NCBI RefSeq assembly: GCF_008807415.1
Contig: NZ_CP043626.1
Span: 2,046,001 to 2,110,000 of the forward strand
Reading direction: 5' to 3'
Length of the DNA: 64,000 bases
Source of the DNA: Pseudomonas denitrificans (nom. rej.)
GTDB taxonomy: Bacteria; Pseudomonadota; Gammaproteobacteria; Pseudomonadales; Pseudomonadaceae
Shown piece by piece: positions 748 to 28,629 of the stretch (position 1 is the first letter of the stretch; the number at the start of each line of letters is the position of its first letter). Under the pieces are notes generated by a model, which was given only the letters and a program-made list of their open reading frames with translations, ran no database searches and was not told the DNA's origin. The translations under genes and the position numbers were made by a program.

Positions 748-761
748 TTCGTTCGGACCAA
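748..761 (+). promoter_or_regulatory. Candidate operator, copy A of recurring 14-base motif
   Basis: TTCGTTCGGACCAA, about 95 bases before the acyl-CoA dehydrogenase start at 653. It aligns without gaps to five other intergenic sites at 13064, 16219, 16240 (opposite strand), 16295 and 28601, sharing the core CG-N2-YGGAC. Assignment to the MalT-like regulators encoded nearby is inference. Confidence 0.45.
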
Positions 762-798
762 TTTCGGGCGGGATTTATTTCGGGCGCCGGGAAAGCAG

Positions 799-828
799 AA
801 AGCCCGCGCGGCGGGGCCGGCGGGCTTT
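799..828 (-). terminator. Hairpin terminator after the thiolase-like gene
   Basis: A 9-base perfect inverted repeat (AAAGCCCGC at 799-807, GCGGGCTTT at 820-828) lies 25 bases after the stop of the thiolase-like gene. The outer A/T bases give a short U tract in the minus direction. It marks the end of the 13-gene operon. Confidence 0.6.
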
Positions 829-852
829 CGCTCCTACAGGTACGGCGCTAGA

Positions 853-2004
853 TCAAAGCGCCGATTCACTCCCCAGGAACGCCGTGACCTGGCTCGACAG
901 CGTCCCGCCGTTGCCATGCAGCAGCGCGATATCGGCCTTCTTCAATTGCCGCGCGCCGGCCTGGCCGCGTATCTGCGTCACTGCTTCAAGGATCAGGAAC
1001 ATCCCGTACATCCCCGGATGCACGCACGACAGCCCACCACCATTGGTGTTCACCGCCAGCTCGCCGCCGGGAGCGATACGCCCGCCCTGGACGAACCGCC
1101 CGCCCTCGCCCTTCGGGCAGAAGCCGAGGTCTTCGAGGAACAGGATGGTGTTGATGGTGAAGGCGTCGTAGAGCATCACCAGGTCGACGTCAGCGTGGCT
1201 CACGCCGGCCATCTGCATGGCGCGCGGGCCGCTTTCCGAGGCGGCGGTGACAGTCAGGTCCGGCATGCACACTACCGAACGGTGCCATTGCGCGCCGCCG
1301 GCACCGAGGAAGTAGGCCGGTTTGTTCGGCAGGTCACGGGCACGGTCCGCACGGACCAGCACGCAGGCGCCGGCGCCATCGGTCACCAGGCAGCAGTCGG
1401 CGGCGCTCAGCGGGTCGCTGACCATCCGTGCGCCCAGCACGTCGTCCATGCTCAGCGGGCCGCGGGCAAAGGCCTCCGGGTTGAGGTTGGCCCAGCCGCG
1501 CGCCGCCAGCGCCACTTCCGCCAGCTGCTCGCGGGTGGTGCCGTACTGGTGCATGTGCCGGCTGGCCGCCAGCGCATAGGAGGTGATCGGGTGGCGCGGC
1601 TTGTAGGCCGTCTCGTGCCACTGCGGCTCGCTCATCGACACCAGCTTGCCGCCGGCGGTGCGCTGGTTGGAGCCATAGCAGATCAACGCCACGTCGCACA
1701 GCCCGGCCTGCAGCGCCAGGGTGGCCTGCAGCAGGTGCCATTCGAAGCTGGAACCGCCGACGTTGGTGCCGTCAACGAACCTGGGCTTGATGCCCAGATA
1801 CTCGCATACCGACAGCGTCGGGAACGCATGGGAGCTGGTGGCGGAGAACACCGCATCGACGTCGGAGAGTTTCAGCCCGGCATCGGCGATAGCTTTCAGC
1901 GAAGCCTGGCCGAGCAGTTCCATGGCGCTGAAGCCGTGGGCTTCGCCGATTCCGGCGCTGCCGATGCCGACGATGGCGGTCTTGCCGCGAAGGGACGAAT
2001 TCAT
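853..2004 (-). CDS. Thiolase-fold lipid-transfer protein (Ltp2-like), probable retro-aldolase subunit
   Basis: A 383-residue protein of the SCP2-thiolase fold. The nucleophilic cysteine of true thiolases is missing: the equivalent region reads GTNVGGSSFEWH (about residues 79-90), with serines at 85-86. The C-terminal Cys-x-Gly motif is replaced by HGNGG. His329 (HPGMYGMF) is kept, and tyrosines occur at 279 (LMLYDAFT) and 333. This pattern fits Ltp2-type proteins, which pair with a DUF35 partner and cleave a beta-hydroxyacyl-CoA by retro-aldol reaction in steroid side-chain degradation. The DUF35 gene lies directly upstream with a 4-base ATGA overlap, as expected for a stoichiometric complex. 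It is the last gene of the operon. The aldolase role is inferred; an inactive thiolase homologue is the alternative. Confidence 0.8.
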   Translation of the reverse strand: MNSSLRGKTAIVGIGSAGIGEAHGFSAMELLGQASLKAIADAGLKLSDVDAVFSATSSHAFPTLSVCEYLGIKPRFVDGTNVGGSSFEWHLLQATLALQAGLCDVALICYGSNQRTAGGKLVSMSEPQWHETAYKPRHPITSYALAASRHMHQYGTTREQLAEVALAARGWANLNPEAFARGPLSMDDVLGARMVSDPLSAADCCLVTDGAGACVLVRADRARDLPNKPAYFLGAGGAQWHRSVVCMPDLTVTAASESGPRAMQMAGVSHADVDLVMLYDAFTINTILFLEDLGFCPKGEGGRFVQGGRIAPGGELAVNTNGGGLSCVHPGMYGMFLILEAVTQIRGQAGARQLKKADIALLHGNGGTLSSQVTAFLGSESAL

Positions 2005-2404
2005 GCCTGCACCTCTTCGATCACGTCGAACACCACGAGCGCCTGCCCGTCTTCCTCGATCACCCGCGCCTTGACGCGGCTGCCGATGGGCGCGGTTTCC
2101 CGGCCTTCGATGCGCGACATCAGGCGCACGCCTTCGTCGAGATCGATCAGCGCCACGTTGTGGCTGGCATTGCGCGAGCGGTTAACGGTGATGGCGTAGA
2201 TGCGCCCGGTGCCGGCAGCCTCGACCCATTCCAGGTCGGTCTCGCCGCTGCCGGGGACGGCCACGCGCGGGTAGAACACATGGCGACCAGTGGAAGCGCT
2301 GCGCTGGATCATGAAACGGCCCTGCTGGAGGAACCGCTGGTACTGCGCTTCCGGTCCGACGGGCGCGGCGGCTGGGGGATTCTCGGCCATGGCTGGCTCC
2401 TGGT

Positions 2405-2408
<4 letters not shown>
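2001..2408 (-). CDS. DUF35 OB-fold protein, partner of the Ltp2-like protein
   Basis: A 135-residue DUF35/OB-fold protein (core around residues 55-130, including GRIYAITVNRSRN and APIGSRVKARVI). Family members usually carry an N-terminal zinc ribbon with two Cys pairs; here the region reads GRFMIQRSASTGRHVFYPR and the whole protein contains no cysteine, so the zinc site is lost. The first ATG at 2408 overlaps the thioesterase stop by 4 bases; a second in-frame Met (MAENPP) is also possible. The gene overlaps the Ltp2-like gene by 4 bases. DUF35 proteins bind and stabilise thiolase-fold partners and help hold the acyl-CoA substrate. Confidence 0.85.
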
Positions 2409-4933
<2,525 letters not shown>

Positions 4934-4942
4934 GGCGATTCC

Positions 4943-6348
4943 TCAGCGACAGATCATGGCGGTGACGGCCTGACGCAGCGGCTCGACGTAAGGCGGGCGC
5001 ATCAGGTCCGGGCCGTCGGCCGGCTTGAACACCGCCTTGGCGTGGCTGAAGGCGCGGAAGCCGTCGCGGCCGTGGTACGAGCCCATACCCGAAGGACCTA
5101 CACCGCCGAACGGCAGGCTCTCGACGCCAACGTGCTTGATCACGTCGTTGATGGTCACCCCCCCGGAAGTGGTGCGGCGCAGTACCAGCGCCTGCTCGTC
5201 GGCGTCGACGCCGAAGTAGTACAGGCCCAGCGGACGCGGGTGGGCGTTGATGTAGTCGATCACCTCGGCGATGGTCTTGTACGGCTTGATCGGCAGCAGC
5301 GGGCCGAAGATTTCGTCCTGCATCACCTTCAGCTCGTCGCCGGGGTTGCGCAGCAGGGTCGGCGCCAGCTTGTGCCCGGTTTGCGCAGCGAAGTCCTCGC
5401 CGGCCGGGTTCAGCTCGATCAGCTCTACGCCCGCCTCGCGGGCTTCGTCCAGGTAGCCCTGCAGGCGCTGCTGGTGGCGAACGTTGATCACCGAGGTGTA
5501 GTCGGGGTTGTCGCGCAGGCTCGGGTAGATGCGCGCGATCACTTCACGGGCGCTGGCGATGAAGTCGTCCAGCGACTCCTCGGGAACGAACACGTAGTCC
5601 GGCGCCAGGCAGATCTGCCCGGCGTTGTGCAGCTTGCCGGCGATGATCTTCTGCACTGCGGCCTGGAAGTCGGCCGAGCGGGAAATGATGGTGGGCGACT
5701 TGCCGCCCAGCTCCAGGGTCACCGGCACTAGGTTCTCGGCGGCGGCGCGCATCACCTGGCGGCCGATGCTGGTGGCGCCGGTGAACAGCAGGTGGTCGAA
5801 GGGCTGGGCGCAGAACGCCTGGCCGACTTCCGGCCCGCCGGTGATCACCGCGACTTCGTCCTCGGCGAACACCGAGGCGATCATCCGGGCAATCAGTGCC
5901 GAGCTGTGCGGGGTGAATTCCGAGGGCTTGATGATCGCCCGGTTGCCGGCGGCCAGGACTCCGGCAAGGCCGGTGAAGACCATGTTCACCGGGAAGTTCC
6001 ACGGCGTGACGATGCCCACCACGCCCAGCGGCTGGTACTCCACCCAGGCTTCGCCGCGCTCGCAGTGGCGCGGCTCGGGCTGCATCCAGCCGAGCAGCTG
6101 GGCCTTGGTCTGCTTCAGGCTCATCAGTGGCGACAGCACTTCCACCACGCGGGAGAAGTCATCGCTGCGCTGGCCGAAATCGGCGCGCACCGCTTCGACG
6201 ATTGCCTGCTGGTGATCGACCAGCAGGCCGATGGCGCGGTCGATCAGCTCGATGCGCCGCTCGGCGCTCAGCGGTTCACTGGACAGGTGCGCGGCGCGCT
6301 GGCGGTCGAGCACGGCGCGGATGGCAGCGCCGGGCTGGTCTGGGTCAT
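4943..6348 (-). CDS. Coniferyl-aldehyde-dehydrogenase-like aldehyde dehydrogenase, apparent frameshift near start
   Basis: NAD(P)-dependent aldehyde dehydrogenase of the coniferyl aldehyde dehydrogenase subgroup (no N-terminal Rossmann extension; hydrophobic C-terminal tail). Motifs include VGIVTPWNFPVNM, LLFTGATSIGRQVM, VTLELGGKSP with the general-base Glu, and NAGQICLAPDYV with the catalytic Cys. The reading frame begins best at ATG 6348 (MTQTSP), but the frame slips at the GGG run 6332-6334; one added base gives MTQTSPGAAIRAVLDRQRAA and a 468-residue protein. Without a repair, a GTG at the AVLDRQ position is the nearest start in the main frame. It lies between the enoyl-CoA hydratase and the alcohol dehydrogenase and should produce the carboxylic acid for CoA ligation. 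Confidence 0.85.
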
Positions 6349-6378
6349 GGCGGGTCTGAGCCTCGTTGTTGTTGTCGT

Positions 6379-7169: not shown

Positions 7170-7236
7170 GCGTACCTCGCGGCGGGCATCCCGGCGGGAA
7201 TGGCCGGCCCGCACGCAGCGGCCCGGCCCACCCGCA

Positions 7237-8385: not shown

Positions 8386-8430
8386 GGCGGCTCCTCGGCA
8401 AGCGATTCGGGAAACGATTCGGATAAGAAG

Positions 8431-8453
8431 GCCGGCCGCACGGGGCGGCCGGC
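8431..8453 (-). other. Intercistronic GC hairpin
   Basis: GCCGGCCGC (8431-8439) and GCGGCCGGC (8445-8453) form a 9-base perfect stem with a 5-base loop between the SDR and acyl-CoA dehydrogenase genes. There is no T tract, so it is more likely an mRNA processing or stabilising element, or a partial attenuator, than a full terminator. Confidence 0.5.
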
Positions 8454-8463
8454 AAAGGGACGG

Positions 8464-9291: not shown

Positions 9292-9306
9292 TGTTGTTCT
9301 CCTGTT

Positions 9307-9714: not shown

Positions 9715-9724
9715 GCTCGGCTCC

Positions 9725-10168: not shown

Positions 10169-10184
10169 GCTCGCGGCTCCCCGG

Positions 10185-11403: not shown

Positions 11404-12960
11404 TCAGTTGACGGCGCGGTTCTGGTCTTTCCAGTAGGGAGCGCGCAGGTCGCGCTTGAGCACCTTGCCGGCCGCCGAGAGCGGCAGCGCGGCAACGAAC
11501 TCGACGGATTTCGGGCACTTGTAGCCGGCGATGTGCTGGGCGCAGTGGGCGCGGATGTCGTCGGAGCAGACATCGCTGCCGGCGTGCAGCACCACCACGG
11601 CGTGCACCGCCTCGCCCCAGCGCTCGTGGGGAATGCCGATCACCGCGCAGCTCTGCACGGACGGGTGGCGGGCCACCACGTTCTCGACCTCGGCGGAGTA
11701 CACGTTCTCGCCGCCGGTGACGATCATGTCCTTGAGGCGGTCGACGATGAACAGGAAGCCGCGCTCGTCCATGTAGGCGCCGTCGCCGGTATGCAGCCAG
11801 CCGTTGCGCAGGGTCTTGGCGGTCTCTTCCGGGCGGTTCCAGTAGCCGAGCATGACGTTGGGGCCGCAGACGATGATCTCGCCCACCACGCCACGGGGGA
11901 CTTCGTTGCCCTCCTCGTCGACGATCTTCACCAGGCCGCCGAAGCCGCCGCGCCCGGCGCTGCGCACCAGGCCGCTGGCGATGCCCTCGGCCTGGTGGGT
12001 CCAGTCCGGGCTCACCGAGATCACCGGCGAGGTTTCGGTCATGCCGTAGGCCTGCATGAAGGCGATGCCGGGAAACTTCGCCAGGGCCTGCTCCAGCACC
12101 GGCAGGGAAATCGGCGAGGCGCCGTAGGCCATGCGCTTGAGGCAGGACAGGTCGTGGCGCTCGAAGTCCGGGTGGTTGATCACCGCCTGCAGCATGGTCG
12201 GCACCAGCAGCATCTCGTTGATGCGCTCGCGCTCGATGGTCTGCAGCACTTCCAGCGGATCGAACATCGGGATGAACACGTTGACGTAGCCACCGATCAC
12301 CTGGCTCAGACAGCGCGCCATGGCCGCGGTGTGGAACATCGGCGCGGCGTGCAGGGTGCGCGAGTCATCCTCGGCGGGGAACTCGGCCATCCGCGCCACA
12401 GCAGAGGACCAGAGATTCAGGTGCGACTGCATCACGCCCTTGGGCAGGCCGGTGGTGCCGCCGGTGTACATGATCGAGGCGAGGTCGTTGCCGCCGCGCA
12501 GGGCGTCTTCGATGGGCTCGTGGCTGGCGATCAGGCCCTCGAAGGAATGCATGCCTTCGGGCGCGGCGCCGTCACCGACATGGATCAGCACCGGGGCGCT
12601 CCTGGCGCCGGCGCGGATGCCTTCGGCCAGGTGCAGGAAGTGGTCGTCGATCAGCAGGATTTCGGTCTGGCAGTCGTCCAGCGAGTAGACGATCTCCGGC
12701 ACGCTCCAGCGGATGTTCACCGGGTTGAGCACGCCGCCGCCCCACCAGGTGGCCAGCATGTATTCCAGGTAGCGGTCCGAGTTCAGGGCCAGCATGCCGA
12801 CCCGGTCGCCGTTGCGCATGCCCAGCGATTGCAGGGCCGCGGCCAGGCGCGAGACGCGCTCGCCCTGCTCGCGGAAGGTCCGCGTGCGGCCGCGGAAGAT
12901 GGTCGCGACGTGGTCCGGGTCCTGCTGCAGCATGCGTTGCAGGCCTTGGGTCAGGTACAT
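11404..12960 (-). CDS. AMP-dependent acyl-CoA ligase
   Basis: A 518-residue ANL-superfamily enzyme activating a carboxylic acid to its CoA thioester. Motifs in order: SIMYTGGTTGLPKGVMQSH (P-loop), QAYGMTETSP, the hinge segment LHTGDGAYMDERGF...VDRLKDMIVTGGENVYSAEVE, and the C-terminal AAGKVLKRDLR with the adenylation Lys. The length fits medium- or long-chain and steroid-acid ligases (FadD3/FadK-like). It is the first gene of the operon; the 309-base upstream gap contains motif copy B and a REP-like palindrome. The product feeds the dehydrogenases, hydratase, SDR and thiolase encoded downstream. Confidence 0.9.
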   Translation of the reverse strand: MYLTQGLQRMLQQDPDHVATIFRGRTRTFREQGERVSRLAAALQSLGMRNGDRVGMLALNSDRYLEYMLATWWGGGVLNPVNIRWSVPEIVYSLDDCQTEILLIDDHFLHLAEGIRAGARSAPVLIHVGDGAAPEGMHSFEGLIASHEPIEDALRGGNDLASIMYTGGTTGLPKGVMQSHLNLWSSAVARMAEFPAEDDSRTLHAAPMFHTAAMARCLSQVIGGYVNVFIPMFDPLEVLQTIERERINEMLLVPTMLQAVINHPDFERHDLSCLKRMAYGASPISLPVLEQALAKFPGIAFMQAYGMTETSPVISVSPDWTHQAEGIASGLVRSAGRGGFGGLVKIVDEEGNEVPRGVVGEIIVCGPNVMLGYWNRPEETAKTLRNGWLHTGDGAYMDERGFLFIVDRLKDMIVTGGENVYSAEVENVVARHPSVQSCAVIGIPHERWGEAVHAVVVLHAGSDVCSDDIRAHCAQHIAGYKCPKSVEFVAALPLSAAGKVLKRDLRAPYWKDQNRAVN

Positions 12961-13063
12961 GGCAGGTCTCCAATCGATGTTGTTCTTGTGAGTTCGATAC
13001 TAGGGAGGGGCGTTGGGCGCGGCGTCGGTCGAAGGGATGAAGCTGCGGTGGTTTGGCGGGTGG

Positions 13064-13077
13064 TTCGAATGGACTAG
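13064..13077 (+). promoter_or_regulatory. Candidate operator, copy B of recurring motif
   Basis: TTCGAATGGACTAG, 104 bases before the ligase start at 12960. It is identical to copy C in its first eleven bases. It is the only copy in the region upstream of the 13-gene operon. Confidence 0.5.
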
Positions 13078-13112: not shown

Positions 13113-13160
13113 TGTAGGAGCGCGCCATGCGCGCGATCGCGGGCATGGCCCGCTCCTACA
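13113..13160. repeat. REP-like palindrome, Pseudomonas type
   Basis: A 48-base element beginning TGTAGGAGCGCGCCATGC and ending GGCCCGCTCCTACA, forming an imperfect hairpin. A copy differing at one base lies at 19312-19359 and related pieces at 60958-61147. Confidence 0.75.
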
Positions 13161-13269: not shown

Positions 13270-14957
13270 TCAACTGGTCTGCAGTTCCCCCAGCGAGGCC
13301 GCGCGGCCCGGCTGGGCGTCATTGCGCTCGGCCAGCAGCAGATCGGCGCACTTCTCGCCGACCATGATGGTCGGCGCATTGGTGTTGCCGCCTACCTGCA
13401 GCGGGATCACCGAGGCGTCCGCCACGCGCAGGCCCTGGACGCCGCGCACGCGCAGCTGCGGATCGACCACCGACTGCTCGTCGCCGCCCATCCGGCAACT
13501 GCCCACCGGGTGGTAAACGTTGTCGCAGTGCTCGCGGATCATCTGTTTCACCGCTTCGTCGTCGCTCCCGTCGAACTTCAGGTGCCCATGGAACAGCGGC
13601 TTGCCGCCGAAGCGCGTGAGCACCGGCTGTTCGAGGATCTGATGCACCAGCTTCACGCCCTTGAGCATGGTCGCCATGTCGCGCTCGTCCTGCAGCAGGT
13701 TCAGCTCGATCAGCGGGTCGTCGCGCATGTCGGCGCTGTGCAGGCGAATCTGCCCGCGGCTGTGCGGGCGCAGCACGCAGACGTGCACCGAGTAGCCGCT
13801 GCCGTAGTGGAAGGTGCGCCCGTGGTTGTCGCCCGAGGACATCACGAAGTGCAGCTGGATGTCCGGGTCGGCCAGCGCCGGATCGGTCTTGAGGAAGGCC
13901 CGGCCTCGGTGAAGGTGCGGGTGAACAGGCCGCCGCGCTCGCGCTTGTACTTGCGCCATTGCCCCAGGTAGCTCAGCGCGCCACGCACGGTCACACCGAA
14001 CAGGTCGGTGCTGAAGATGCGCTTGTGCAGGATCAGGTCCGGGTGTTCCTGCAGGTTCTGCCCGACCTCGGGCGCGTCGTGCAGCGGCGCGATGCCCAGC
14101 TGCCGCAGGTGCGCGGCCGGGCCGATGCCGGAAACCATCAGCAGTTGCGGCGAGACCAGGCTGCCGGCGCAGACGATCACTTCCCGCGAGGCATGCAGCG
14201 CCACTTCCTGGCCGTCACGTTCCACCAGCACGCCGGTGGCACGCTTGCCCTGGAACAGGATGCGCAGCGCGCGGCTGCCGGTCAGCACCTGCAGATTCGA
14301 GCGCCCGCCATTGTGCGTCTCATCGCCGGCATTGCCACGGTGCAGATAGGCCCGCGCGGCGTTCCAGCGCTCGCCGTTGAACTGGGTGACCTGGAAGTAA
14401 CCCACGCCCTCCTGCTGCGGCCCGTTGAAGTCGTGGTTGTAGGCGTGGCCGGCGCTGGCCGCCGCCTCGATGAAGTGGCGCGCCCAGGAGCACGGCGAAC
14501 GCGGGTCGGTGACGTGCAGCGGGCCGCTGCCGCCGTGCAGTGCGTCGTCCTTGCCGGCAGCGCGCTCGTTGTTCTCGGCGCGTTTGAAGTACGGCAGCAC
14601 CTCTTTCCAGCTCCAGCCTTCACAGCCGGCAGCGGCCCAGCCGTCGTAATCCGAAGGCGTACCGCGCAGGTAGAGCATGCCGTTGATTGAGGAGCTGCCG
14701 CCCAGCCCGCGACCGCGCGGCAGGTAGCTGGCGCGACCCGCCAGGCTCGGCTGCGCGGTGCTTTCGTAGGCGTAGTTGTAGTCGCCCTTGCGCGGAATGG
14801 TCAGCACCAGGCCCACCGGCACGGTGACCTTGCCGTGGTGGTCGTGGCCGCCGGTTTCCAGCAGCGCCACCTTGCAGCCGGCATCGGCCAGCCGCCCGGC
14901 CACTGCGCAACCGGCCGAGCCGGCGCCTACCACTATGTACTCGTACAAGCGTTCCAT
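13270..14957 (-). CDS. GMC-family FAD alcohol oxidase/dehydrogenase, apparent frameshift
   Basis: Choline-dehydrogenase-like GMC oxidoreductase oxidising an alcohol with FAD. Seen: FAD motif YIVVGAGSAGCAVAGRLA at the N-terminus, GMC signature 1 (GRGLGGSSSINGMLYLRG), GMC signature 2 (GSLVSPQLLMVSGIGP), the active-site His in VYHPVGSCRMG, and GGNTNAPTIMVGEKCADLL at the C-terminus. The frame breaks at the CCC run 13899-13901 after LFTRTFTEAG; one extra base continues AFLKTDPALADPDIQLHF to the stop, giving 562 residues, normal for the family. It is co-directional with, and 48 bases from, the racemase gene. With the zinc alcohol dehydrogenase of the next operon it gives two routes from alcohol to aldehyde. 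Confidence 0.87.
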
Positions 14958-16136: not shown

Positions 16137-16218
16137 CGCATCGCTCCTGTCTGGCTGTGCAAGCGCCGGGATATCCGGCAGCTCCCCAGCCTAGCGACGG
16201 GCCAGCGGGCAACAATGG

Positions 16219-16308
16219 ATCGAACGGACGAATCACGGACTAGTCCGCTCGGGCCGAATTTCGGGGCTCTGGCGTGCCTCAAACTGTCGAGTAGTTCGAA
16301 TGGACGAC
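16219..16308. promoter_or_regulatory. Cluster of three motif copies between racemase and regulator genes
   Basis: Three copies of the recurring motif lie in the 273-base divergent gap: ATCGAACGGACGAA (16219-16232), CTAGTCCGCTCGGG read on the minus strand as CCCGAGCGGACTAG (16240-16253), and TTCGAATGGACGAC (16295-16308). The middle one includes the palindrome GGACTAGTCC (16237-16246). The arrangement suggests control of both the racemase-GMC unit and the regulator gene itself. Confidence 0.5.
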
Positions 16309-16409
16309 TGCGATCCCGCCGCCGGCCGTGGCAAGATGCCGCGACATAGAAAAACAATTGAGCCGGCGGCGAGCCCAGCGCAGCCACACGACCGGCCAGC
16401 GGAGTTGCC

Positions 16410-19118
16410 ATGTCTGCCCAGTTTTCCGCCGCCTCTGCCACCGGGACCGCGCCCCTGCGCATCCTGTCGAGCAAGTTCGCCACGCCGTCCGTCTCCGCCA
16501 GCCATCTGCCCCGCCAGCACCTGCTGGAGCAGATGGAGCAGTCCAGCGCGCGGCTGATCCTGATCCGCGCCGCCGCCGGCTTCGGCAAGACGACCCTCCT
16601 GCAGCAGTACCGCGAGCGCTGCCTGGCCCAGGAGCGCCAGGTGCTCTGGCTCAACCTGGATGCCGCGGACAACGACCTGCAACGCTTCGTTGCCCACCTC
16701 GCCAACGGCCTGCGCCAACTCGACGCCACGCCGACCGGCGAGCCGCAGGGCCTGTCCCAGCAGATGCAGACGCTGCTGGAAGAACTCTCCGACCGCACTC
16801 GCCCCTTCGCCCTGCTGCTGGACGAATTCGAGGCGATCCACAACCCGGCGGTGCTCAACTTCGTCCAGCAGCTGATCGACACCCTGCCGCCCTGCGGCGT
16901 ACTGGTGCTGGCCTCCCGCTCGACACCGGACATCGGCCTGGGGCGCATCCGTGCCCGTGGCCAGCTGCTGGAGTTCAACCCCGGCGCGCTGCGCTTCTCC
17001 CTCGACGAGGCGACGCGCTTCATCCGCGACAAGCGCGAACTGCCGCTGCGTGACGCCGAGATCGCCACCCTCTACCGCTGTACCGAGGGCTGGATCACCG
17101 CCATCTACCTCGCCAGCCTGTCGCTGCAGGGGCGCAACGACCACGCAGCCTTCGTCTCCAGCTTCTCCGGCAGCAACCTGGAGCTGGCCGAGTACCTGAC
17201 CGAGGACATCCTCGCGCGGCAGAGCGAGGCCTGCCGGCAGTTCCTCCTGCTCACCAGCGTGCTTGACCAGCTCTGCGTGCCGCTGTGCAACGCCGTCACC
17301 GGCGGGCAGGACGGCCAGGAAATGCTCGCCTACCTGGAACGCGCCAATCTGTTCCTCTTCCCCCTGGACAGCGAACACCAGTGGTTCCGCTACCACAGCC
17401 TGTTCGCCAGCTACCTGCGCGACGCCCTGCAGCGCTCCTACCCCGGCCATGCCGCACGGCTGCACCAGCTGGCGGCGCAGTGGTACCTGGCCGAGCAGCG
17501 CCCGGTGCCGGCCATCGACCACCTGCTGCAGGCCGGCGCCCGCGACGAGGCCGCGCTGCACCTGACCCGGCATGTCGGCGAATTCATGGACGTGGGCCGT
17601 TCGCGCCTGCTGCTGCGCTGGCTGGACCAGATTCCGCCGCAGACCCTGCAGCGCTATCCCAACCTCTGCCTGGGCTATTCCTGGACCCTCGCCCTGCACC
17701 GCCGCTACACCGACGCGTTGGCCAGCATCGCGCTGATCCGTGGCGCCACTGAAGATGGCGAGCAACCGCTGGCGCTGGAAGCAGAAACCATCCGCTGCCT
17801 GCTGTTCGCCCTCACCGACCAGGTGGAAGCCTGCTGCGAAGCGGGCCTGGCGCATATCCAGCGCATCCCCGATGAAGAGCAGTTCCAGTACGGCGTGATC
17901 GCCAACTGCCTGGGCTACAGCCTGGTCTCCACAGGACGCTACGAAGAGGCGCGGCGCCTGCTGTCGCGGGCGATCCTGCGCTGTTCGCAGAGCCGCACCC
18001 AGTCCATGGGCAGCGTCGCCAGCTGTCTGGAGGGCGCGCTGGACATGATCCAGGGGCGCCTGGGCAATGCCGTGGCGCGTCTGCAGGCGGCCTTCCCGAC
18101 GCAAACCACGGGCGGTGCTGAGAAGATTCTCGCCGGGCGGCCGTCGCTGGAGATCACGCTGTCCATCGCACTCTACGAAACCGACGCGCTGGACGAGGTG
18201 GAGCAGCTGCTGGGCGAAGTGCTGCCCCACGCCAAGGAAAGCAGCCCGCCGGATTCACTGATTTCCTGCCATGTCCTGCTGGCCCGCGTCGCCCTGCTCA
18301 AGGGCGATCGCGACGCCTGGCTGCGCCTGCTGGCGGACCTGGAACAGATCGGCCAGCAGTCCGGCTCGGCACGGGTGATCTGCTCGGCCTGGCTGGAGCG
18401 TGCACGCGCGGCCACCCTGGAGAATCGACTGGAATCGGCCCGCCAATCCCTGCGCTATGCCGAGCTGCATGGTGACTGGGAGCGGCCGGGCATCCTGCTG
18501 CATGGCAACGACGTGGACACCCCGAGCATCGCCCGCTTCCGCCTGCGCATCGCCCAGGGCGACTGCGAGGACACCGAGCGCGAGCTGCGCGAAGCCATGG
18601 CCGAGGCCAACACCCGCCAGCACCATCGCCGCGAACTCAAGCTGCGCCTGCTGCATGCCCTCGCGCTCAGTGCCCTGGAGCGAACCGAGGAGTCCTTCGA
18701 GGCACTCAGCGAGGCGCTGCGCTTCGCCAGCCATGAAGGCTTCATGCGCACCTTCCTCGACGAGGGCCCGCGCCTGGGTGGCCTGCTGCAACGCTGGGCG
18801 GTTCCGCATCAGGCGCAGTCGCGAGCGCTGGGCATCGAGCCGCGCTTCCTCACCACCCTGCTGCAGCGCTTCGTCGGCCATGGCGAGACGCCGAGCAACG
18901 GCCAGGTACCCGGCGCTGCCGGCGAAGGCCTGACCACCCGCGAGATCCAGGTGATCCGCCTGCTGGCAGCCGGGCACCGGAACAAGGTGATCGCCGAGAA
19001 GATGTTCCTCTCCGAGTTCACCGTGAAGTCGCACCTGCGCAACATCAACGCCAAGCTCGGCGCCCAGGGGCGCACCGAGGCCGTGGCGATTGCGCGGGCG
19101 CGGGGATTGCTGGATTGA
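16410..19118 (+). CDS. MalT-like LuxR-family transcriptional regulator (LAL type), 902 aa
   Basis: Large ATP-binding LuxR regulator. The N-terminal NTPase domain has Walker A AAAGFGKTT (residues 54-62) and LLLDEFEAIHN as the Walker B-like strand. A long helical, TPR-like sensor region follows (about 350-820). The C-terminal LuxR/GerE helix-turn-helix is clear: GLTTREIQVIRLLAAGHRNK then SEFTVKSHLRNINAKL. Proteins of this layout bind an inducer and ATP, oligomerise and activate transcription. It is divergent from the racemase gene, with three candidate operator copies in the gap. It probably controls the minus-strand catabolic operons. Confidence 0.9.
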   Translation: MSAQFSAASATGTAPLRILSSKFATPSVSASHLPRQHLLEQMEQSSARLILIRAAAGFGKTTLLQQYRERCLAQERQVLWLNLDAADNDLQRFVAHLANGLRQLDATPTGEPQGLSQQMQTLLEELSDRTRPFALLLDEFEAIHNPAVLNFVQQLIDTLPPCGVLVLASRSTPDIGLGRIRARGQLLEFNPGALRFSLDEATRFIRDKRELPLRDAEIATLYRCTEGWITAIYLASLSLQGRNDHAAFVSSFSGSNLELAEYLTEDILARQSEACRQFLLLTSVLDQLCVPLCNAVTGGQDGQEMLAYLERANLFLFPLDSEHQWFRYHSLFASYLRDALQRSYPGHAARLHQLAAQWYLAEQRPVPAIDHLLQAGARDEAALHLTRHVGEFMDVGRSRLLLRWLDQIPPQTLQRYPNLCLGYSWTLALHRRYTDALASIALIRGATEDGEQPLALEAETIRCLLFALTDQVEACCEAGLAHIQRIPDEEQFQYGVIANCLGYSLVSTGRYEEARRLLSRAILRCSQSRTQSMGSVASCLEGALDMIQGRLGNAVARLQAAFPTQTTGGAEKILAGRPSLEITLSIALYETDALDEVEQLLGEVLPHAKESSPPDSLISCHVLLARVALLKGDRDAWLRLLADLEQIGQQSGSARVICSAWLERARAATLENRLESARQSLRYAELHGDWERPGILLHGNDVDTPSIARFRLRIAQGDCEDTERELREAMAEANTRQHHRRELKLRLLHALALSALERTEESFEALSEALRFASHEGFMRTFLDEGPRLGGLLQRWAVPHQAQSRALGIEPRFLTTLLQRFVGHGETPSNGQVPGAAGEGLTTREIQVIRLLAAGHRNKVIAEKMFLSEFTVKSHLRNINAKLGAQGRTEAVAIARARGLLD

Positions 19119-19288: not shown

Positions 19289-19311
19289 GAAGCGCAAGCG
19301 CGGAGCTGACC

Positions 19312-19359: not shown

Positions 19360-19536
19360 GGTTTGCTTCACGGCGGCTCGATGCTCTGGGGCGAGACAGG
19401 GGGATTCGCGGACAAGGTCCGCTCCTGCAGGGGCTGCGTGGTGCTCTTGTAGGAGCGGATCTTATCCGCGAAATTCAACGCGGATGAATCCGTGGTCGAA
19501 GGTAAACGATGCAGCGTGGCGCGTCGGCAGGAGCCG

Positions 19537-20388
19537 TCAGTCGCCAGCGCTGGCCAGCAACCGCCGGGCGCGGCCCAGCACCGGCGCATCGACCATCTGC
19601 CCGTCGACCTGGAAGGCCGCCGCGCCGCTCTGCGCGGCAGCCACCACCCGCTGCGCCCAATCCAGCTCGTCCGCGCTCGGGGCCAGCGCCGCATGGGCGA
19701 CACCGACCTGCTTCGGATGAATACAGAGCGCGCCGAGCAGACCGAGGTCGCGGCCATGGCGGATGGTCGCGGCGAAGCCTTCGGCGTCGTCGAACGCGGG
19801 GAACACGGTGTCCAGCGGCGGTTGCAGGTCGTTCACCCGTGAATGCAGCAGCAGGCTCAGGCGCACCTGGTCATAGACCACCGCGGCAGCCTGGGTGCCA
19901 CTGCTCATGCCGATATCCAGCGCCAGATCGAGGCCACCGAAGGTCAGGCGTTCCACACCCTCGCAGGCAGCGATTTCGCCCAGTGCGAGCAGGCCACGGG
20001 CGCTCTCGATCAGTGGCCACACCGGTTTGCCGCAGGACGCGGCGATACGCACCTGCATGGCGCGCTCGGCCTTGGGCAGCAGGATGCCGATGACGCCCGG
20101 CAGGCGCCGGCAGAGTTCAAGATCGGCGGCCTGTTCCGGATCGCCAGCGGCATTCACCCGCACCCGCACGCGGGCCTCCGGATTGGCGCCGAGGAAGGCT
20201 TCCAGATTGTCGCGGGCCTGGGCCTTGAGCGAGGCCTCGACAGCATCCTCGAAGTCGACGATCACCGCGTCGGCGCCGCTGGCCAGGGCCTTGGCGAAAC
20301 GCTCCGGGCGGCTGCCGGGAACGAACAGCGCGGTTCGCACGATGGAATCCGCCGGGCTTTGCTGAATCATTGGGTTCTCCTGGGTCAT
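19537..20388 (-). CDS. ccl: (S)-citramalyl-CoA lyase (HpcH/HpaI-CitE family)
   Basis: CitE-like lyase cleaving citramalyl-CoA to acetyl-CoA and pyruvate, the last step of itaconate degradation. Family motifs: LFVPGSRPERFAKAL, AVIVDFEDAV (metal-binding acidic residues), WPLIESARGLLAL, FGGLDLALDIG and ALCIHPKQV. The first ATG (20388) overlaps the stop of the CoA-transferase gene by 4 bases; MIQQSP six codons later is an alternative start. The function is assigned from sequence together with the neighbours, which follow the known itaconate cluster of P. aeruginosa (ict, ich, ccl). It is the last gene of that operon. Confidence 0.87.
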   Translation of the reverse strand: MTQENPMIQQSPADSIVRTALFVPGSRPERFAKALASGADAVIVDFEDAVEASLKAQARDNLEAFLGANPEARVRVRVNAAGDPEQAADLELCRRLPGVIGILLPKAERAMQVRIAASCGKPVWPLIESARGLLALGEIAACEGVERLTFGGLDLALDIGMSSGTQAAAVVYDQVRLSLLLHSRVNDLQPPLDTVFPAFDDAEGFAATIRHGRDLGLLGALCIHPKQVGVAHAALAPSADELDWAQRVVAAAQSGAAAFQVDGQMVDAPVLGRARRLLASAGD

Positions 20389-21574
20389 ACCGCGCCCTGC
20401 TCGTGCAGGCGCTGGATATCACCGGGGGTATAACCCAGTTCCTGCAGCAGGTCATCCGTCTGCTGACCTAATGCCGGCACGGCGTCCATGCGCGGGGCGT
20501 AGGCATTGCTGTTCACCGGCGGCAAAAGCGCCGGCAGGCGGCCGGCCGGGCTGTCGATCTCACGCCAGCGGTCGCGGGCGGCGAGTTGCGGGTGTTGCCA
20601 CAGGCCACGCATGTCGTTGACGTGGGCGTTGGCGATCTGCGCCTGTTCCAGGCGTTCGACCACCTGTTCGGCGCCAAGGCTGGCAAAGGCTTCGACGATC
20701 AGTCCACGCAGGGCATCGCGGTTGGCCACCCGCAGGCTGGTCGCGGTGAAACGCGGATCGACCGCCAGCTCCGGACGCTGCAGGACCACTTCGCAGAACA
20801 GCTTCCACTCGCGCTCGTTCTGTACGCCGAGCATGACGCTGCCGCCGTCGCCGGTGGGGAACGGCCCGTAGGGATAGATGGTGGCGTGGGCAGCGCCGGC
20901 GCGCGGCGGCTGCGACTGGCCTTCGAAGGCGTAGTACATGGGGAAGCCCATCCACTCGGCCATGCCTTCGAGCATCGACACCTCGACGCGGCTGCCCTCT
21001 CCCGTGCGGCCACGCAGCAGCAGCGCGGAGAGGATGCCGCTGTAGGCGTACATGCCGGCGGAAATGTCGGCAATCGAGCAGCCGGCCTTGGCCATCTCGT
21101 CGGCGCCGGGCCCGCCGGTCACCGAGAGGAAGCCGCTCTCGCTCTGGATCAGCAGGTCATAGGCCTTCTTCTGCTCGTAGGGGCCGCCTTCGCCGTAGCC
21201 GGAAATGTCACAGACGATCAGGCGCGGAAGCGTTCGTGCAGCGCGTCGAACGACAGCCCCAGGCGCGCGGCGGCGCCCGGCGCGAGGTTCTGCACCAGCA
21301 CGTCGGCGGTTTCCAGCAGTTGCTCCAGCACGGCCTGGGCCGGTTCCTGCTTGAGGTCCAGGGACAGGCTTTCCTTGGAGCGGTTGGTCCAGACGAAATG
21401 CGAGGCCAGGCCGCGCACGCGCTCGTCATAGCCGCGGGCGAAGTCGCCGACGCCGGGGCGCTCGACCTTGATCACGCGGGCGCCGAGGTCGGCCAGCTGA
21501 CGGGTGCAGAACGGCGCGGCGATGGCGTGTTCCAGGCTGACGACGGTGATGCCGTCGAGGGGACGCGAACTCAT
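20385..21574 (-). CDS. ict: Itaconate CoA-transferase (family III), apparent frameshift
   Basis: CaiB-type CoA-transferase, expected to move CoA from succinyl-CoA to itaconate. N-terminal motif LDGITVVSLEHAIAAPFCTRQL and VIKVERPGVGDFARGYD; the catalytic Asp is expected in the AYDLLIQSESGFLSVTGGPG segment. The frame breaks at the GG pair 21226-21227 after FDALHERF; one extra base reads PRLIVCDISGYGEGGPYEQ and continues to the stop, giving 396 residues, typical for the family. ATG 21574 is chosen as start because GGAG lies 6 bases upstream; a TTG two codons earlier is possible. It overlaps ccl by 4 bases. Confidence 0.87.
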
Positions 21575-21652
21575 GGGCAACTCCAGACGCCGGCTGGCTG
21601 GCCGACGCGCTTGCTTCGGAAGAATCGAGCGGACTGGCCGCCCGCAGCAGAC

Positions 21653-23002: not shown

Positions 23003-23020
23003 TGTTCTTCTCGTCCCGGC

Positions 23021-24181: not shown

Positions 24182-24228
24182 CGAAACACCTCATGTCTTT
24201 CTTGTTGGAGGCACCGGAAGCGGTGCGG

Positions 24229-25056
24229 TCAGTCGAATTCCACTTCGCCGCGCTGGGCGATACCGGCGCCGTTGCCGGCCCAGACTTCGGCCTTGCCAGG
24301 GCCGCTCAGGCGGCCGCCGACGTCGAACGGTTCGGGGCTGATCAGCGGGCGCAGGCCACGGTAGGCATAGCGGCGCAGACGTGCCTGGGGGTTGGCGCGG
24401 CAGAACGCGCGCAGGTTCAGGGTGCCGATCAGCGGGCCGTGCACCACCAGGCCGGGGTAGCCCTCGGCCTCGGTGACGTAGGGCCAGTCGTAATGGATGC
24501 GGTGGCCGTTGAAGGTCAGCGCGGAGTAGCGGAACAGCAGGATCGGCGTCGGCTCTACTGCTTCACTCCAGTCCCCGGCGGGCAGTGCATCGCCGCTTGT
24601 GAGCTTGGGCGGAGTGGGCTCGCGGTAGACGATGTCCTGCTCCTCGCTGAACGCCAGGCGGCCGTCCTGGGTGAACTCGTGGCGCAGGGTGACGAACAGC
24701 AGCGAGCCGGTGCGGCCGTGCTTTTCCTCGACATTCAGGATGGTGGTGGTGCGTTTCGCCACGCCGCCGACACGCAGCGGCTCGTGGAACTCCAGGCGGC
24801 CACCGGCCCACATGCGGTTGCGCCCATCGGCCGGAGGCAGGAAGCCGCCCCGCGCCGGATGGCCGTCGGCGCCCAGGCCCGGCTCGGTCACTTCATCCTG
24901 GAAGAACATCCAGTGCCACAGCGGCGGCAGTGCCTCGCCGGCAGCCGGGGCGTCTTCGGCCAGGGTCACGGCCAGACGGCGGACCAGCAGCGTACTCAGT
25001 TCTTCCTCGCGCTCCTGGGAGCGGCCGATCCAGTCGGCGTAGGGTGAATCGCTCAT
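24229..25056 (-). CDS. ich: Itaconyl-CoA hydratase (MaoC/FAS1-dehydratase double hot-dog)
   Basis: A 275-residue protein with two hot-dog halves, like mesaconyl-C4-CoA hydratase: an N-terminal half including LPPLWHWMFFQDEV and GGFLPPADGRNRMWAGG, and a C-terminal half with LLFRYSALTFNGHRIHYDWP (Asn-His substrate loop) and YPGLVVHGPLIGTL. It would hydrate itaconyl-CoA to citramalyl-CoA. The start is ATG 25056 (MSDSPYADWIG), preceded by AGAGG; an upstream Met (MKMWIRR) would read through the promoter. It is the first gene of the operon, divergent from the LysR regulator. Confidence 0.88.
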   Translation of the reverse strand: MSDSPYADWIGRSQEREEELSTLLVRRLAVTLAEDAPAAGEALPPLWHWMFFQDEVTEPGLGADGHPARGGFLPPADGRNRMWAGGRLEFHEPLRVGGVAKRTTTILNVEEKHGRTGSLLFVTLRHEFTQDGRLAFSEEQDIVYREPTPPKLTSGDALPAGDWSEAVEPTPILLFRYSALTFNGHRIHYDWPYVTEAEGYPGLVVHGPLIGTLNLRAFCRANPQARLRRYAYRGLRPLISPEPFDVGGRLSGPGKAEVWAGNGAGIAQRGEVEFD

Positions 25057-25134
25057 TGCGGACCTCTTGGCAGGTTTGATGAACGGAGCATGCAACAGGG
25101 CTTGCGTTCGTCGAATCCACATTTTCATAATCCA

Positions 25135-25155
25135 GCGTTAGGCAATGCCTAACGC
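25135..25155. promoter_or_regulatory. Palindromic LysR operator between ich and its regulator
   Basis: A perfect 9-base inverted repeat, GCGTTAGGC and GCCTAACGC, separated by AAT. It contains the T-N11-A pattern of LysR boxes. It lies in the 155-base gap between the divergent ich and LysR genes and is the obvious site for autoregulation and operon control. Confidence 0.75.
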
Positions 25156-25211
25156 CATTTCTACACTTCAAGCCTAGCGCCGCTGTTGGTCGCTTCGCGG
25201 AGAACCGCCCC

Positions 25212-26126
25212 ATGCATTTCGACCTCGCCGACCTGCGGCTTTTCGCGCACATCGCCGAAGCCCCCAGCCTGACCCAGGGCGCCCGCCGCGCCCATCTCTC
25301 GGCGGCCGCCGCCAGCGCACGGATCAAGGCGCTGGAAGGCCAACTCGACTGCCGTCTGCTCTACCGCGACAACCGTGGTGTCGAGCTGACCCCGGCGGGC
25401 CAGCGCCTGCTGCAGCACGCGCGCCTGATCCTGCGCCAGGTGGACCACCTGAAAAGCGACTTCAGCGGCCAGGCCGGCGACCAGGTCGGGCACATCCGCA
25501 TCTTCGCCAACACCACGGCGGTCACCGAATTCCTCCCCGAACTGCTGGCGGACTTCCTCGCCGAGCGCCCCGGCGTCAGCGTCGACCTGCAGGAGCGGCT
25601 GAACCGCGACATCGTCCGCGCCATCCTCGACGGCTCGGCGGACTTAGGCATAGTCGCCGGCCCGGTGCGCGCCGAAGGCCTGCAGATCGTCCACTTCAGC
25701 ACCGACCGGCTGGTCCTCGCGGTAGCGCCCGACCATCCGCTTTGTGCCCTGCCCCGCCTGACCCTCGCCGACACCCTGGACTACCCGCACATCGCCCTGC
25801 ATGAAGGCAGCACCCTGCAGAGCTTCCTGCGCGAACGGGTCGAGCGCATGGGCGGCGACCTCAACCTGCGTATCCAGGTGGCCAGCTTCGAAGCCATCTG
25901 CCGGATGGTCGAGGCCGGGGTCGGCATCGGCGTGATTCCGGAGACCGCCGCCATCCGCCACAGCCGCACCATGAATCTGCGAATTCTGCCGCTGGACGAG
26001 CCCTGGGTGGTACGCGAACGCAGCGTGCTGCTGCGCGACCGCGAGGCCCTGCCGGCTTGTGCCCGCGCGCTGGTGGACCTGCTGCGCGGCATGCAGGAGG
26101 CCGGCTCAACCGAGCAGCCCCAGTGA
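25212..26126 (+). CDS. LysR-type regulator of the itaconate cluster
   Basis: A 304-residue LysR regulator. The N-terminal winged HTH covers about residues 1-62 (DLADLRLFAHIAEAPSLTQG, then SARIKALEGQLDCRLLYR). The effector domain begins at about 92 (GHIRIFANTTAVTEFLPE). It is divergent from ich with a palindromic box between, the same arrangement as the RipR/ItcR-type regulator of P. aeruginosa. It should activate the operon in response to itaconate or its CoA ester. Its 3' end overlaps the convergent MalT-like gene by 21 bases. Confidence 0.9.
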   Translation: MHFDLADLRLFAHIAEAPSLTQGARRAHLSAAAASARIKALEGQLDCRLLYRDNRGVELTPAGQRLLQHARLILRQVDHLKSDFSGQAGDQVGHIRIFANTTAVTEFLPELLADFLAERPGVSVDLQERLNRDIVRAILDGSADLGIVAGPVRAEGLQIVHFSTDRLVLAVAPDHPLCALPRLTLADTLDYPHIALHEGSTLQSFLRERVERMGGDLNLRIQVASFEAICRMVEAGVGIGVIPETAAIRHSRTMNLRILPLDEPWVVRERSVLLRDREALPACARALVDLLRGMQEAGSTEQPQ

Positions 26127-28523
26127 CTTGGCGCGGACGATGGCCTGGGTGCGCCGGCGCACGCCGAGCTTGACGTTGATCTTCTTGGCGTGGGTTTTCA
26201 CGGTGTTGAGCGAGATGAACAGGCTGTTGCCGATCTCCTGGTTCGACAGGCCCTCGGCGAGCAGACGCAGCACGGCCACTTCCCGCGCGGTGAGGCCGTG
26301 GGCGCTGTCCTCGGCCTCGCCGCTGGACGTCGGCAACAGGCTGGGCAGGCGCTCCGGGGCGATCTCGATCCGCAGGCTGTTCAAGGCATGTTCGGCCTCG
26401 CCCGCCAATGCTTGATAGCCAAGGGCCTGGCACTCTTCACGCAACTGCAGCAGACGGGCCCGCGCGGCGTCGATCCGGCCACAGCCGGCTTCCGCCAGCG
26501 CCAGCAGGTAACGCACGCGCTGCGGCAGTGACGGCGTATGCAGCGGTGCGACCCGCTCCGGGCGCTGTTCCAGCTCCCCGTCCAGCACCGTCGCCTCGTG
26601 GTGCAGGCGCAGCCATTGGCCCTGACGCGCCAGCAGGCGCAACTTGAGGCTTTCCAGCGACAGCCGGTAGCAATCGGGCTGCACATTCCAGCAGTGCATG
26701 CGGCGTTCGGCTTCCTCGCAGTAGCGTTGCGCGGACGCTGCGTCGCCGCTGCGCGAGGCCGCTTCGCCAAGGCCCAGCAGGCCGTGGAGGATGTAAGGGT
26801 CGGCGCAGGAACGCGCCAGGCCCAGCCCGCCTTCCAGCGCGGCCGCAGCAGCCATGGCATCGCCCTGCAGCAACCGCAGTTCGCCATCGAGGAAGGCCAG
26901 ACGCCCGCGCAGCAGCTCATGCCCCTCGCCGCTGGCCGGCAGCCGCTCGCGGCAAGCGTCCAGCAGGCTGCGGGCCTGTTCGCGCTCGCCGGCCAGCAGG
27001 CAAAGGCGCACGCGGTCGAAGTCGATCAGCACTTCGCTGGCCAGGCAGCCCTGGCGTCGCGCCAGCTCCAGCGCAGCCTGGAGGATACGTCGGGCCTGCG
27101 GCAGCGAGCCGGTGGCCATGTCCAGCCGCGCCAGGGTGGTCAGGCACAACAGGGTCGACCGCCAGTCGCGCGCCTCCAGGTCTTCGAGTGCCGCATTGCA
27201 GTGGTCGCGGGCCTGTTCGAGGCGGCCGTGCATGCCATCCAGCGCACCGCGCAGCGCCAGCCAGTTGGCCAGCAGGCGGCGGTTGCGCGGCGCCTGGGGC
27301 TGCGGCAGGAAGTTGCCCAGGCGCTCGATGCACTGGTGCGCTTCGTCCAGGCGCCAGCTGAACAGCAGCGCACGGGCGCTCAGGCTGATCAGCCGGGGGG
27401 TGCTTTCCAGCAGGGTCGCCGGCAGCCGCTCGCGCCACTCCAGCAGCAGGCCGAGGTGACGGCCGCTGAACAGCCAGTCCATGTCCAGGCGGTCCATGTA
27501 GCCGGCGGCGACTTCCGGCTGCCCGGCTTCCAGCGCCATCTCGATGGCTTCGTCCAGCCAGCCGGCCTGGCCCAGCACGCCACAGGCACGCAGGCGCAGG
27601 CGGGTCAGCGCCGGGCCCTGGAGATGGCACTGCAATGCCTTGGCCACCAGCGGCGGCAGGCGGAAGCAGCTGGCCTCGGCATCCAGGGCGAGGAAGAAGC
27701 CCTGCCCCTGTTGCAGGCGGTCGAAGAGCACGCCGCCCTGCTCTTCCCACAGGCTCGCGCAGATTTCCCGGTTGAAGCGCGGCAGGTAGGCAAGACCGCA
27801 GAGCATCGCGCCGGTCTCGGCATCGAGCCGGCCTAGCAGCTCCTGGGACAGGTAGGTACGCAGCCAGGAAGCCACCTCCCCCGGCGCGTGCACACCGTCG
27901 CGCGCGCTGAGCACCAGCCGCGCGCCAGCGCACCAGCCCTGGGTTGCGGCCCACAGGCGCTCGCGGCAGTCGGCGTCGTAGCCCTGCGCCAGCGCCAGCA
28001 GGTCGCATTCATCACGGCTGAACGCGAGACGCGCGGCGCCCAGCTCACAGAGGCGTTCATCCAGCAGCAGGCGCGAAAGGTTCCAGGCCGGGCGCTGGCG
28101 GCTGCTCACCAGCAGATACAGCGGTGCTTCTGCGAGACCGAGCAGGCGCTGTAGCCAGGCGTCGAGCTCGGGGTCGGCGGCTTGAGGGTAGTCGTCCAGC
28201 ACCAGCCACAGGGGTTGCCGGCGCGATTGCAGGGCCAGTTGCACGCTGGCCGGGTCACTGTCGATCAGGCCCAGCTGACGGGCGATCTGGGCGCAGCAAG
28301 CGCTCAGCGCCAGGGGCTGCCCGGCGAAGTCGAGCCAGACGCGGGCACAGCTCGACGGCAGGCGCTCCAGCACGGCGCGCGCCAGTGCGCTCTTGCCATA
28401 GCCAGCCGGGGCGCACAGCAGGTTCAGGCGTCGGGGCGACTCCAGCAGGGCGTGCAGCAGTGGCTCGCGGGGCAATTGCAGGGCGACCGGCGTGGCGGTG
28501 GCAATGGCGGGGAAACTGGACAT
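26106..28523 (-). CDS. Second MalT-like LuxR-family regulator, 805 aa
   Basis: Same architecture as the 902-residue regulator but clearly divergent: Walker A APAGYGKS (residues 38-45), WLVLDDYPQA as Walker B-like strand, a long helical sensor region, and a C-terminal LuxR HTH (GLTAREVAVLRLLAEGLSNQ, then SLNTVKTHAKKINVKL). The start ATG at 28523 gives MSSFPAIATATPVALQLPRE. The upstream gap contains motif copy E. It ends convergent with the itaconate LysR gene, overlapping by 21 bases. It may control the DUF1302/DUF1329 genes or share targets with the first regulator. Confidence 0.9.
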   Translation of the reverse strand: MSSFPAIATATPVALQLPREPLLHALLESPRRLNLLCAPAGYGKSALARAVLERLPSSCARVWLDFAGQPLALSACCAQIARQLGLIDSDPASVQLALQSRRQPLWLVLDDYPQAADPELDAWLQRLLGLAEAPLYLLVSSRQRPAWNLSRLLLDERLCELGAARLAFSRDECDLLALAQGYDADCRERLWAATQGWCAGARLVLSARDGVHAPGEVASWLRTYLSQELLGRLDAETGAMLCGLAYLPRFNREICASLWEEQGGVLFDRLQQGQGFFLALDAEASCFRLPPLVAKALQCHLQGPALTRLRLRACGVLGQAGWLDEAIEMALEAGQPEVAAGYMDRLDMDWLFSGRHLGLLLEWRERLPATLLESTPRLISLSARALLFSWRLDEAHQCIERLGNFLPQPQAPRNRRLLANWLALRGALDGMHGRLEQARDHCNAALEDLEARDWRSTLLCLTTLARLDMATGSLPQARRILQAALELARRQGCLASEVLIDFDRVRLCLLAGEREQARSLLDACRERLPASGEGHELLRGRLAFLDGELRLLQGDAMAAAAALEGGLGLARSCADPYILHGLLGLGEAASRSGDAASAQRYCEEAERRMHCWNVQPDCYRLSLESLKLRLLARQGQWLRLHHEATVLDGELEQRPERVAPLHTPSLPQRVRYLLALAEAGCGRIDAARARLLQLREECQALGYQALAGEAEHALNSLRIEIAPERLPSLLPTSSGEAEDSAHGLTAREVAVLRLLAEGLSNQEIGNSLFISLNTVKTHAKKINVKLGVRRRTQAIVRAKSLGLLG

Positions 28524-28600
28524 GGCGACACCCGTTATCGTTGTAGTTCGTGCTGCGTCGGGGTGTCAGAAGATCATTGCGGGGCGAGGCGGGACAATCG

Positions 28601-28629
28601 GTCGTTCGGACTAGCCGCAGGACTAGCCC
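28601..28629. promoter_or_regulatory. Candidate operator, copy E with a second half-site
   Basis: GTCGTTCGGACTAG at 28601-28614 is followed five bases later by a second GGACTAG half (28619-28626 as AGGACTAG). It is about 78 bases before the start of the 805-residue regulator gene, suggesting auto- or cross-regulation. Confidence 0.45.

Follow-up and report, generated by a model that had tools for sequence, protein, structure and literature searches.

Within a stretch of 64,000 nucleotides of Pseudomonas denitrificans (nom. rej.) (the window; contig NZ_CP043626.1, positions 2,046,001 to 2,110,000), the gaps before a CoA ligase operon, a racemase-GMC oxidoreductase unit, a stand-alone acyl-CoA dehydrogenase gene and the genes of two MalT-like regulators share a 16-bp inverted repeat, TAGTYC-N4-GRACKA. 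This dyad is probably an operator for dimers of a GerE-type activator in class II position; the 902-aa regulator LAL1 (for large ATP-binding LuxR) would be its most likely reader, and the 805-aa regulator LAL2 would be the second step of a LAL1-to-LAL2 cascade. A shared operator linking the scattered units is well supported, because the dyads are conserved in related genomes and their promoter geometry is constant. An earlier reading of the letters without database searches (the sequence-only reading) had proposed the operator of one or both MalT-like proteins; its shared operator stands, and comparison of clusters narrowed the choice to the 902-aa protein. Taken together, the element appears to be real and the regulon local, and it is best assigned to LAL1 by that comparison.

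Definition of the element

The sequence-only reading had listed six 14-base sites, found by eye. All six were present at the coordinates and strands listed, outside gene calls, and the distance to the start codons, given as about 80-170 bases, was measured as 77-156 bp, in rough agreement. The consensus fitted five of the six sites, site 748 carrying a C at the K position. Alignment of the sites with those of related genomes revealed the 16-bp inverted repeat; the motif borders first drawn were slightly off, the 14-mer being the dyad core plus one flank. Five of the six listed sites were conserved across the relatives, but 16240 was not, and a dyad at 13025 had been overlooked.

The cluster was found in four relatives of the same genus, giving five genomes for comparison: G000, which holds the window, and G010, G024, G022 and G015. 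The dyads, without strand, and the neighbouring elements are as follows, in window positions; 'invariant' means identical in all five genomes.

745-760: dyad TAGTTCGTTCGGACCA (earlier site 748), predicted proximal operator of the stand-alone acyl-CoA dehydrogenase gene starting near 654 on the minus strand; 16 of 16 columns invariant, within a 31-nt invariant run
13025-13040: dyad TCGGTCGAAGGGATGA (absent from the earlier list), predicted proximal operator of the ligase operon; 16 of 16 invariant, in a 22-nt invariant run, matrix score 15.4
13061-13076: dyad TGGTTCGAATGGACTA (earlier site 13064), predicted distal operator of the ligase operon; 12 of 16 invariant
16216-16231: dyad TGGATCGAACGGACGA (earlier site 16219), predicted proximal operator of the racemase-GMC unit; 13 of 16 invariant
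16240-16253, minus strand: CCCGAGCGGACTAG (earlier site 16240), overlapping the perfect palindrome GGACTAGTCC (16237-16246); accessory site of doubtful standing, with a full copy only in G010, the closest relative
16292-16307: dyad TAGTTCGAATGGACGA (earlier site 16295), predicted proximal operator of the 902-aa regulator's own gene; 15 of 16 invariant
28598-28613: dyad TCGGTCGTTCGGACTA (earlier site 28601), predicted operator of the 805-aa regulator gene; 16 of 16 invariant, within a 23-nt invariant run
28620-28626: half-site GGACTAG, adjoining dyad 28598

Used as a regular expression, the earlier consensus matched five times in the window (1.3 expected; 1 of 100 shuffles reached five). Over the whole 6.88 Mb genome it was not enriched, with 146 matches, below the 574 of the backward control; the expression alone defines nothing and was rejected as a genome-wide definition. 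A tighter core, TCGWWYGGACBA, had 12 genome matches (control 1), five of them in these gaps. The other seven were rejected as regulon members, six lying in coding-like frames and one (1958717 on contig C1) in a tandem TCGATCGGACGA repeat; the latter locus is a short tandem array, TCGATCGGACGATCGGACGATCGG, with no good coding frame. Also rejected was a weaker match at 2855170 before a permease-like gene, which resembles another palindrome.

The ideal dyad, TAGTYC-N4-GRACTA with at most one mismatch, occurred at five places in G000, three of them in the window (745, 13061 and 16292), and its backward control matched 56 times. In the relatives the cluster held three of all copies in each case (3 of 5 in G010, 3 of 6 in G024, 3 of 17 in G022 and 3 of 8 in G015). 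These counts are descriptive more than a test, the pattern having been taken from the sites.

Conservation in related genomes

Conservation was counted over 150-250 nt of each of four gaps; site 16240 was excluded, as were the 30 nt nearest each start. All five genomes agreed at 88 of 96 columns in the dyads and at 249 of 519 in the rest of the gaps (Fisher p about 3e-17, for columns that are not independent). The dyads are islands of conservation in diverged gaps. Comparison of the same gaps in related genomes had been proposed with the original list; it left five of the six listed sites with 12 to 16 of 16 dyad columns invariant and 16240 with 4.

A matrix built from the six G000 sites gave five window matches of at least 16 against none in 20 simulations, a circular result since the matrix comes from these very sites; only its use on the relatives counts. 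There its top matches fell in the same gaps, with ranks 1-4 in G024, G015 and G010a, 1-5 in G022 and 2 in G010b. Outside the five genomes, G004 has a close copy of dyad 745 ahead of its dehydrogenase gene, which encodes a 73.7% identical product.

Promoter geometry

The distance from the end of the proximal dyad to a -10-like box was 22-24 nt at all five promoters:

716-721, minus strand: dehydrogenase gene, GATACT at a spacing of 23 nt; invariant
12997-13002, minus strand: ligase operon, TAGTAT at a spacing of 22 nt; CTCCCTAGTATCGA invariant
16188-16193, minus strand: racemase unit, TAGGCT at a spacing of 22 nt; not invariant, G022 differing
16332-16337, plus strand: 902-aa regulator gene, CAAGAT at a spacing of 24 nt; CGTGGCAAGATG invariant
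28570-28575: GATCTT of the 805-aa regulator gene, 22 nt; weakest of the set

The boxes of the dehydrogenase, ligase and 902-aa regulator promoters sit in invariant runs, and several paralogous regulator genes have a GTGGCAGAATG-like block ahead of them. The layout recurs in one cluster of G004 and in one of G014, with TAGTTCGAAGTGACTA or TGGTCCGAAGTGATTA, 23 nt and GATAAT. LuxR-type class II activators bind near -42, and with transcription starts placed from the by-eye boxes the spacing would put the centre of the dyad near this position.

The two regulators and their proposed dyads

The regulators and the dyads of a second type found in the window are:

16410-19118, plus strand: LAL1, LuxR-type regulator of 902 aa that combines an ATPase, a MalT-like TPR part and a GerE helix-turn-helix; it would read the TAGTYC dyads
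26106-28523, minus strand: LAL2, 805-aa MalT-like regulator; proposed LAL1 target and reader of ACCCG-type dyads
31995-32042, no strand: second-type dyads TCACCTGATCGGGCGG and TCACCTGCACGGGTGA, before DUF1302/DUF1329; conserved in five genomes
32159-32179: third second-type dyad, in the DUF1302 gap of the window

LAL1 carries all three features of the LAL family, a C-terminal GerE helix-turn-helix, a MalT-like TPR part and an N-terminal ATPase (PF00196 63.3, PF17874 95.1 and PF13401 36.0 bits, all above cutoff). For LAL2, PF00196 scored 62.5 bits, above cutoff, and PF17874 36.9, under its cutoff of 45; no ATPase family was found at E <= 1e-5. The last 62 amino acids of LAL1 are 97-100% identical over the five genomes and the remainder 72-97%.

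We compared 16 clusters with a LAL2-like gene beside DUF1329 and DUF1302, eight with LAL1 (three of these hold LAL1 relatives of 53-61% identity) and eight without. TAGTYC dyads with a matrix score of at least 14 were present in seven of the eight LAL1-bearing clusters, the exception being G014:C47 at 12.3, and in none of the eight LAL2-only clusters. Of the LAL2-only clusters, five belong to genomes in which LAL1 had no match at E <= 1e-150, one (L116) is in G000, and for the other two (L021 and L022) the search did not extend to the whole genome. In G021, whose LAL1-like protein is 47% identical, no clear dyad was seen in the 5.4-5.6 kb loci viewed. Shortly before DUF1302 all 16 clusters, with or without LAL1, carry a dyad of a second type, roughly TNACCCGNNCGGGTNA, which was also seen by eye in a 17th cluster, in G006. 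At the DUF1302 gene of the window it is followed after 23 nt by a -10-like CAGCAT. Since the dyad type tracks the presence of the regulators, the comparison points to LAL1 as the partner of the TAGTYC dyads and to LAL2 as that of the second (ACCCG) type.

Alternative explanations

It is quite unlikely that LAL2, or both LAL proteins together, read the TAGTYC dyads. An invariant dyad does precede LAL2's own gene and the helix-turn-helix of LAL2 is highly conserved, but the LAL2-only clusters lack TAGTYC dyads at the score used and have the ACCCG type before DUF1302, and six LAL2-like genes carry a CACCTG-type block in their own upstream gap. Another GerE-domain regulator encoded elsewhere in the genome, TeiR-like or of NarL type, is an unlikely reader as well, though a serious rival. 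It was suggested by runs of TAGTCC-N4-GGACGA in G018, G020, G023 and G022, met while near-ideal dyads were being counted, in what appear to be steroid regulons beside GerE regulators of about 380 aa. Five stretches (L129-L133, from G020, G018 and G022) encode KshA_C, a FAD dehydrogenase, a BphC-like dioxygenase and DUF1302, and the GerE proteins of these steroid-type stretches have 376 and 389 aa, with no MalT-like ATPase or TPR found; we call them TeiR-like from gene context and size. At least 4 of the 18 site orientations shown have a -10-like hexamer 22 nt downstream. It is thus probable that a nearly identical operator can serve a GerE protein of different build. In the presumed recognition helix, HLR is common to LAL1 and the TeiR-like proteins, where LAL2 differs with HAK or HTK; this may serve as a lead only. 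However, a search with a TeiR-like query, which covered GerE proteins of this kind only, gave no match at E <= 1e-25 in G000, G010, G024 and G015, all of which keep the sites, and such a protein therefore cannot explain the sites in these genomes. In addition, the sites are restricted to the cluster that holds LAL1.

Very improbable, finally, is the view that the six sites are chance matches, or are conserved for another reason such as RNA structure, with no common regulator. The earlier expression does occur at chance density genome-wide and site 16240 is not conserved, but the view does not fit with invariant dyads in diverged gaps at constant spacing to conserved -10-like boxes, or with the same element before the corresponding genes of G004.

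The number of near-ideal dyads was also considered as a sole marker of LAL1 and failed in the eleven genomes counted. It was 5, 5, 6 and 8 in genomes with LAL1 and without a TeiR-like protein (three each in the cluster), 17 in the genome with both, 9, 11 and 14 with a TeiR-like protein only, and 2, 3 and 3 with neither. Grouped by the TeiR-like protein alone, the counts were 9, 11, 14 and 17 in the four genomes with it and 2, 3, 3, 5, 5, 6 and 8 in the seven without, in keeping with its probable use of a nearly identical operator. Counts of the tight core were 4-10 in six genomes lacking LAL1 (G006, G016, G018, G019, G020 and G023) and 6-12 in five with the cluster.

Several observations weigh against assigning the TAGTYC dyads to LAL1 as a class II activator. 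The regular expression, the matrix and the dyad were all derived from the sites themselves, which makes their enrichment partly circular; as the patterns were drawn from the sites, conservation across the four relatives is the better test. Two other window positions also scored high with the matrix, 43849 within a gene (16.3) and 52276 outside gene calls (15.5). The -10-like boxes were picked by eye, guided by conservation. The helix-turn-helix of LAL2 is as conserved as that of LAL1 and in the same pattern, and does not discriminate between the two. The loose ACCCG-type pattern matched at seven more places elsewhere in the stretches scanned, and the match is poor in the 16 bases ahead of the LAL1 gene of G004:C12. 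For ComA, another GerE protein, poor activation from an inverted repeat in class II position is described in the available part of PMC4797271.

Proposed mechanism

With LAL1 as the preferred reader of the TAGTYC dyads, regulation could proceed as follows. An inducer of the pathway would switch on LAL1. A LAL1 dimer would sit on the dyad, next to a poor -35 and some 42 bp ahead of the transcription start, and aid RNA polymerase as a class II activator. LAL1 would activate its own gene, giving positive feedback, together with the racemase-GMC unit, the ligase operon, the stand-alone acyl-CoA dehydrogenase gene and the gene of LAL2. LAL2 would then act on DUF1302/DUF1329 through the ACCCG-type dyad.

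Two leaders contain a further candidate element:

674-681, minus strand: dehydrogenase leader, AAGAACAA, a fit to the Crc target AAnAAnAA; invariant
12980-12987, minus strand: ligase leader, AAGAACAA, a fit to the Crc target AAnAAnAA; invariant

The consensus AAnAAnAA near the translation start comes with a false discovery rate of 27% in the portion of PMC3003667 available. Because AAGAACAA in both leaders fits this target, catabolite repression of the ligase and the dehydrogenase is plausible from the motif match.

Other genes in the window

A thiolase-like gene adjoins a gene for a ChsH2-type OB-fold protein and a thioesterase gene (853-2851), and the ligase (11404-12960) has a below-cutoff match to a steroid-24-oyl-CoA synthetase model. 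By its sequence matches, the set of thiolase, ChsH2-type protein and ligase would fit degradation of the side chain of an isoprenoid or steroid acid. An inverted repeat GTAGGAGCG...CGCTCCTAC at 13114-13159 looks by eye like a repetitive extragenic palindromic (REP) element. The frames of the GMC oxidoreductase gene (13270-14957) and of a CaiB-type gene (20385-21580) are split here and open in the four relatives, a sign of sequencing error or decay.

Between 19537 and 26126 lie genes for a lyase, a CoA-transferase, MmgE/PrpD, an acyl-CoA dehydrogenase, a dehydratase-like protein and a LysR protein, a set that resembles the itaconate-degradation set of P. aeruginosa. The gap at 25128-25212 has its own conserved palindrome, GCGTTAGG..CCTAACGC, unlike the TAGTYC motif. 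The LysR protein (25212-26126) was considered as reader of the dyads and rejected, as it sits with a different operon and with this palindrome in the gap before 24229-25128.

A sulfatase gene (PF00884, 32178-33869) diverges from DUF1302 across the second-type dyads; it may share their control, and could hint at sulfated substrates. Further along the window are an S-type pyocin-like gene with a DNase domain and a PAAR motif (50611-52224) and an autotransporter gene with a pertactin-like part (54492-57416).

Comparison with known systems

No report of a TAGTYC operator was found in the open-access literature searched. It is possible, though doubtful, that a two-step cascade of LAL1 on TAGTYC and LAL2 on ACCCG dyads governs a module of many Pseudomonas, with the operator and geometry of LAL1 common to steroid regulators of different build. 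If so, the module may handle steroid or isoprenoid side chains, and genomes such as G022, with both kinds of regulator, could have real cross-talk. With one predicted operator for each regulator and a defined geometry, the regulon and the order of LAL1 before LAL2 become open to direct tests, and the substrate of a conserved cluster can be approached.

MalT of Escherichia coli has the same domain order of ATPase, TPR and C-terminal GerE. However, both proteins of the window stay under the curated MalT cutoff (equivalog NF003420, 537 bits), LAL1 with 347.9 and LAL2 with 158 bits, and MalT boxes are asymmetric repeats whereas the element of the window is a dyad. The steroid regulators of the TeiR/TesR type, also LuxR proteins, share the GerE domain, and the apparent regulons of this kind in related genomes have a nearly identical dyad; these regulators differ in their size of about 380 aa, in that no MalT-like ATPase or TPR was found, and in that four of the five site-bearing genomes lack them.

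By analogy, the closest described system would be that of Pseudomonas putida GPo1, in which the LuxR/MalT activator AlkS has an inverted-repeat operator ahead of both PalkB and its own PalkS2 and acts with positive feedback (PMC8784404, PMC3664771); the system is under Crc control (PMC8784404, PMC3664771, PMC3003667), all as described in the available parts of these sources. The likeness thus extends to a MalT-like activator of a catabolic operon, an inverted-repeat operator before target and own promoter, positive feedback and Crc control. A layout of the AlkS type is present in the window, with dyads at 745, 13025, 13061 and 16216 and with 16292 before LAL1, to which LAL1 would bind. The genes differ, those of the window being for a CoA ligase, a racemase, thiolases and a GMC oxidoreductase, as do the operators, a 16-bp dyad here and a 20-bp repeat in the accessible part of the review. 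The window moreover has two LAL proteins and two types of dyad. Within the literature covered, and to the extent that its sources were available, AlkS is the only LAL-type catabolic activator of Pseudomonas with a described operator.

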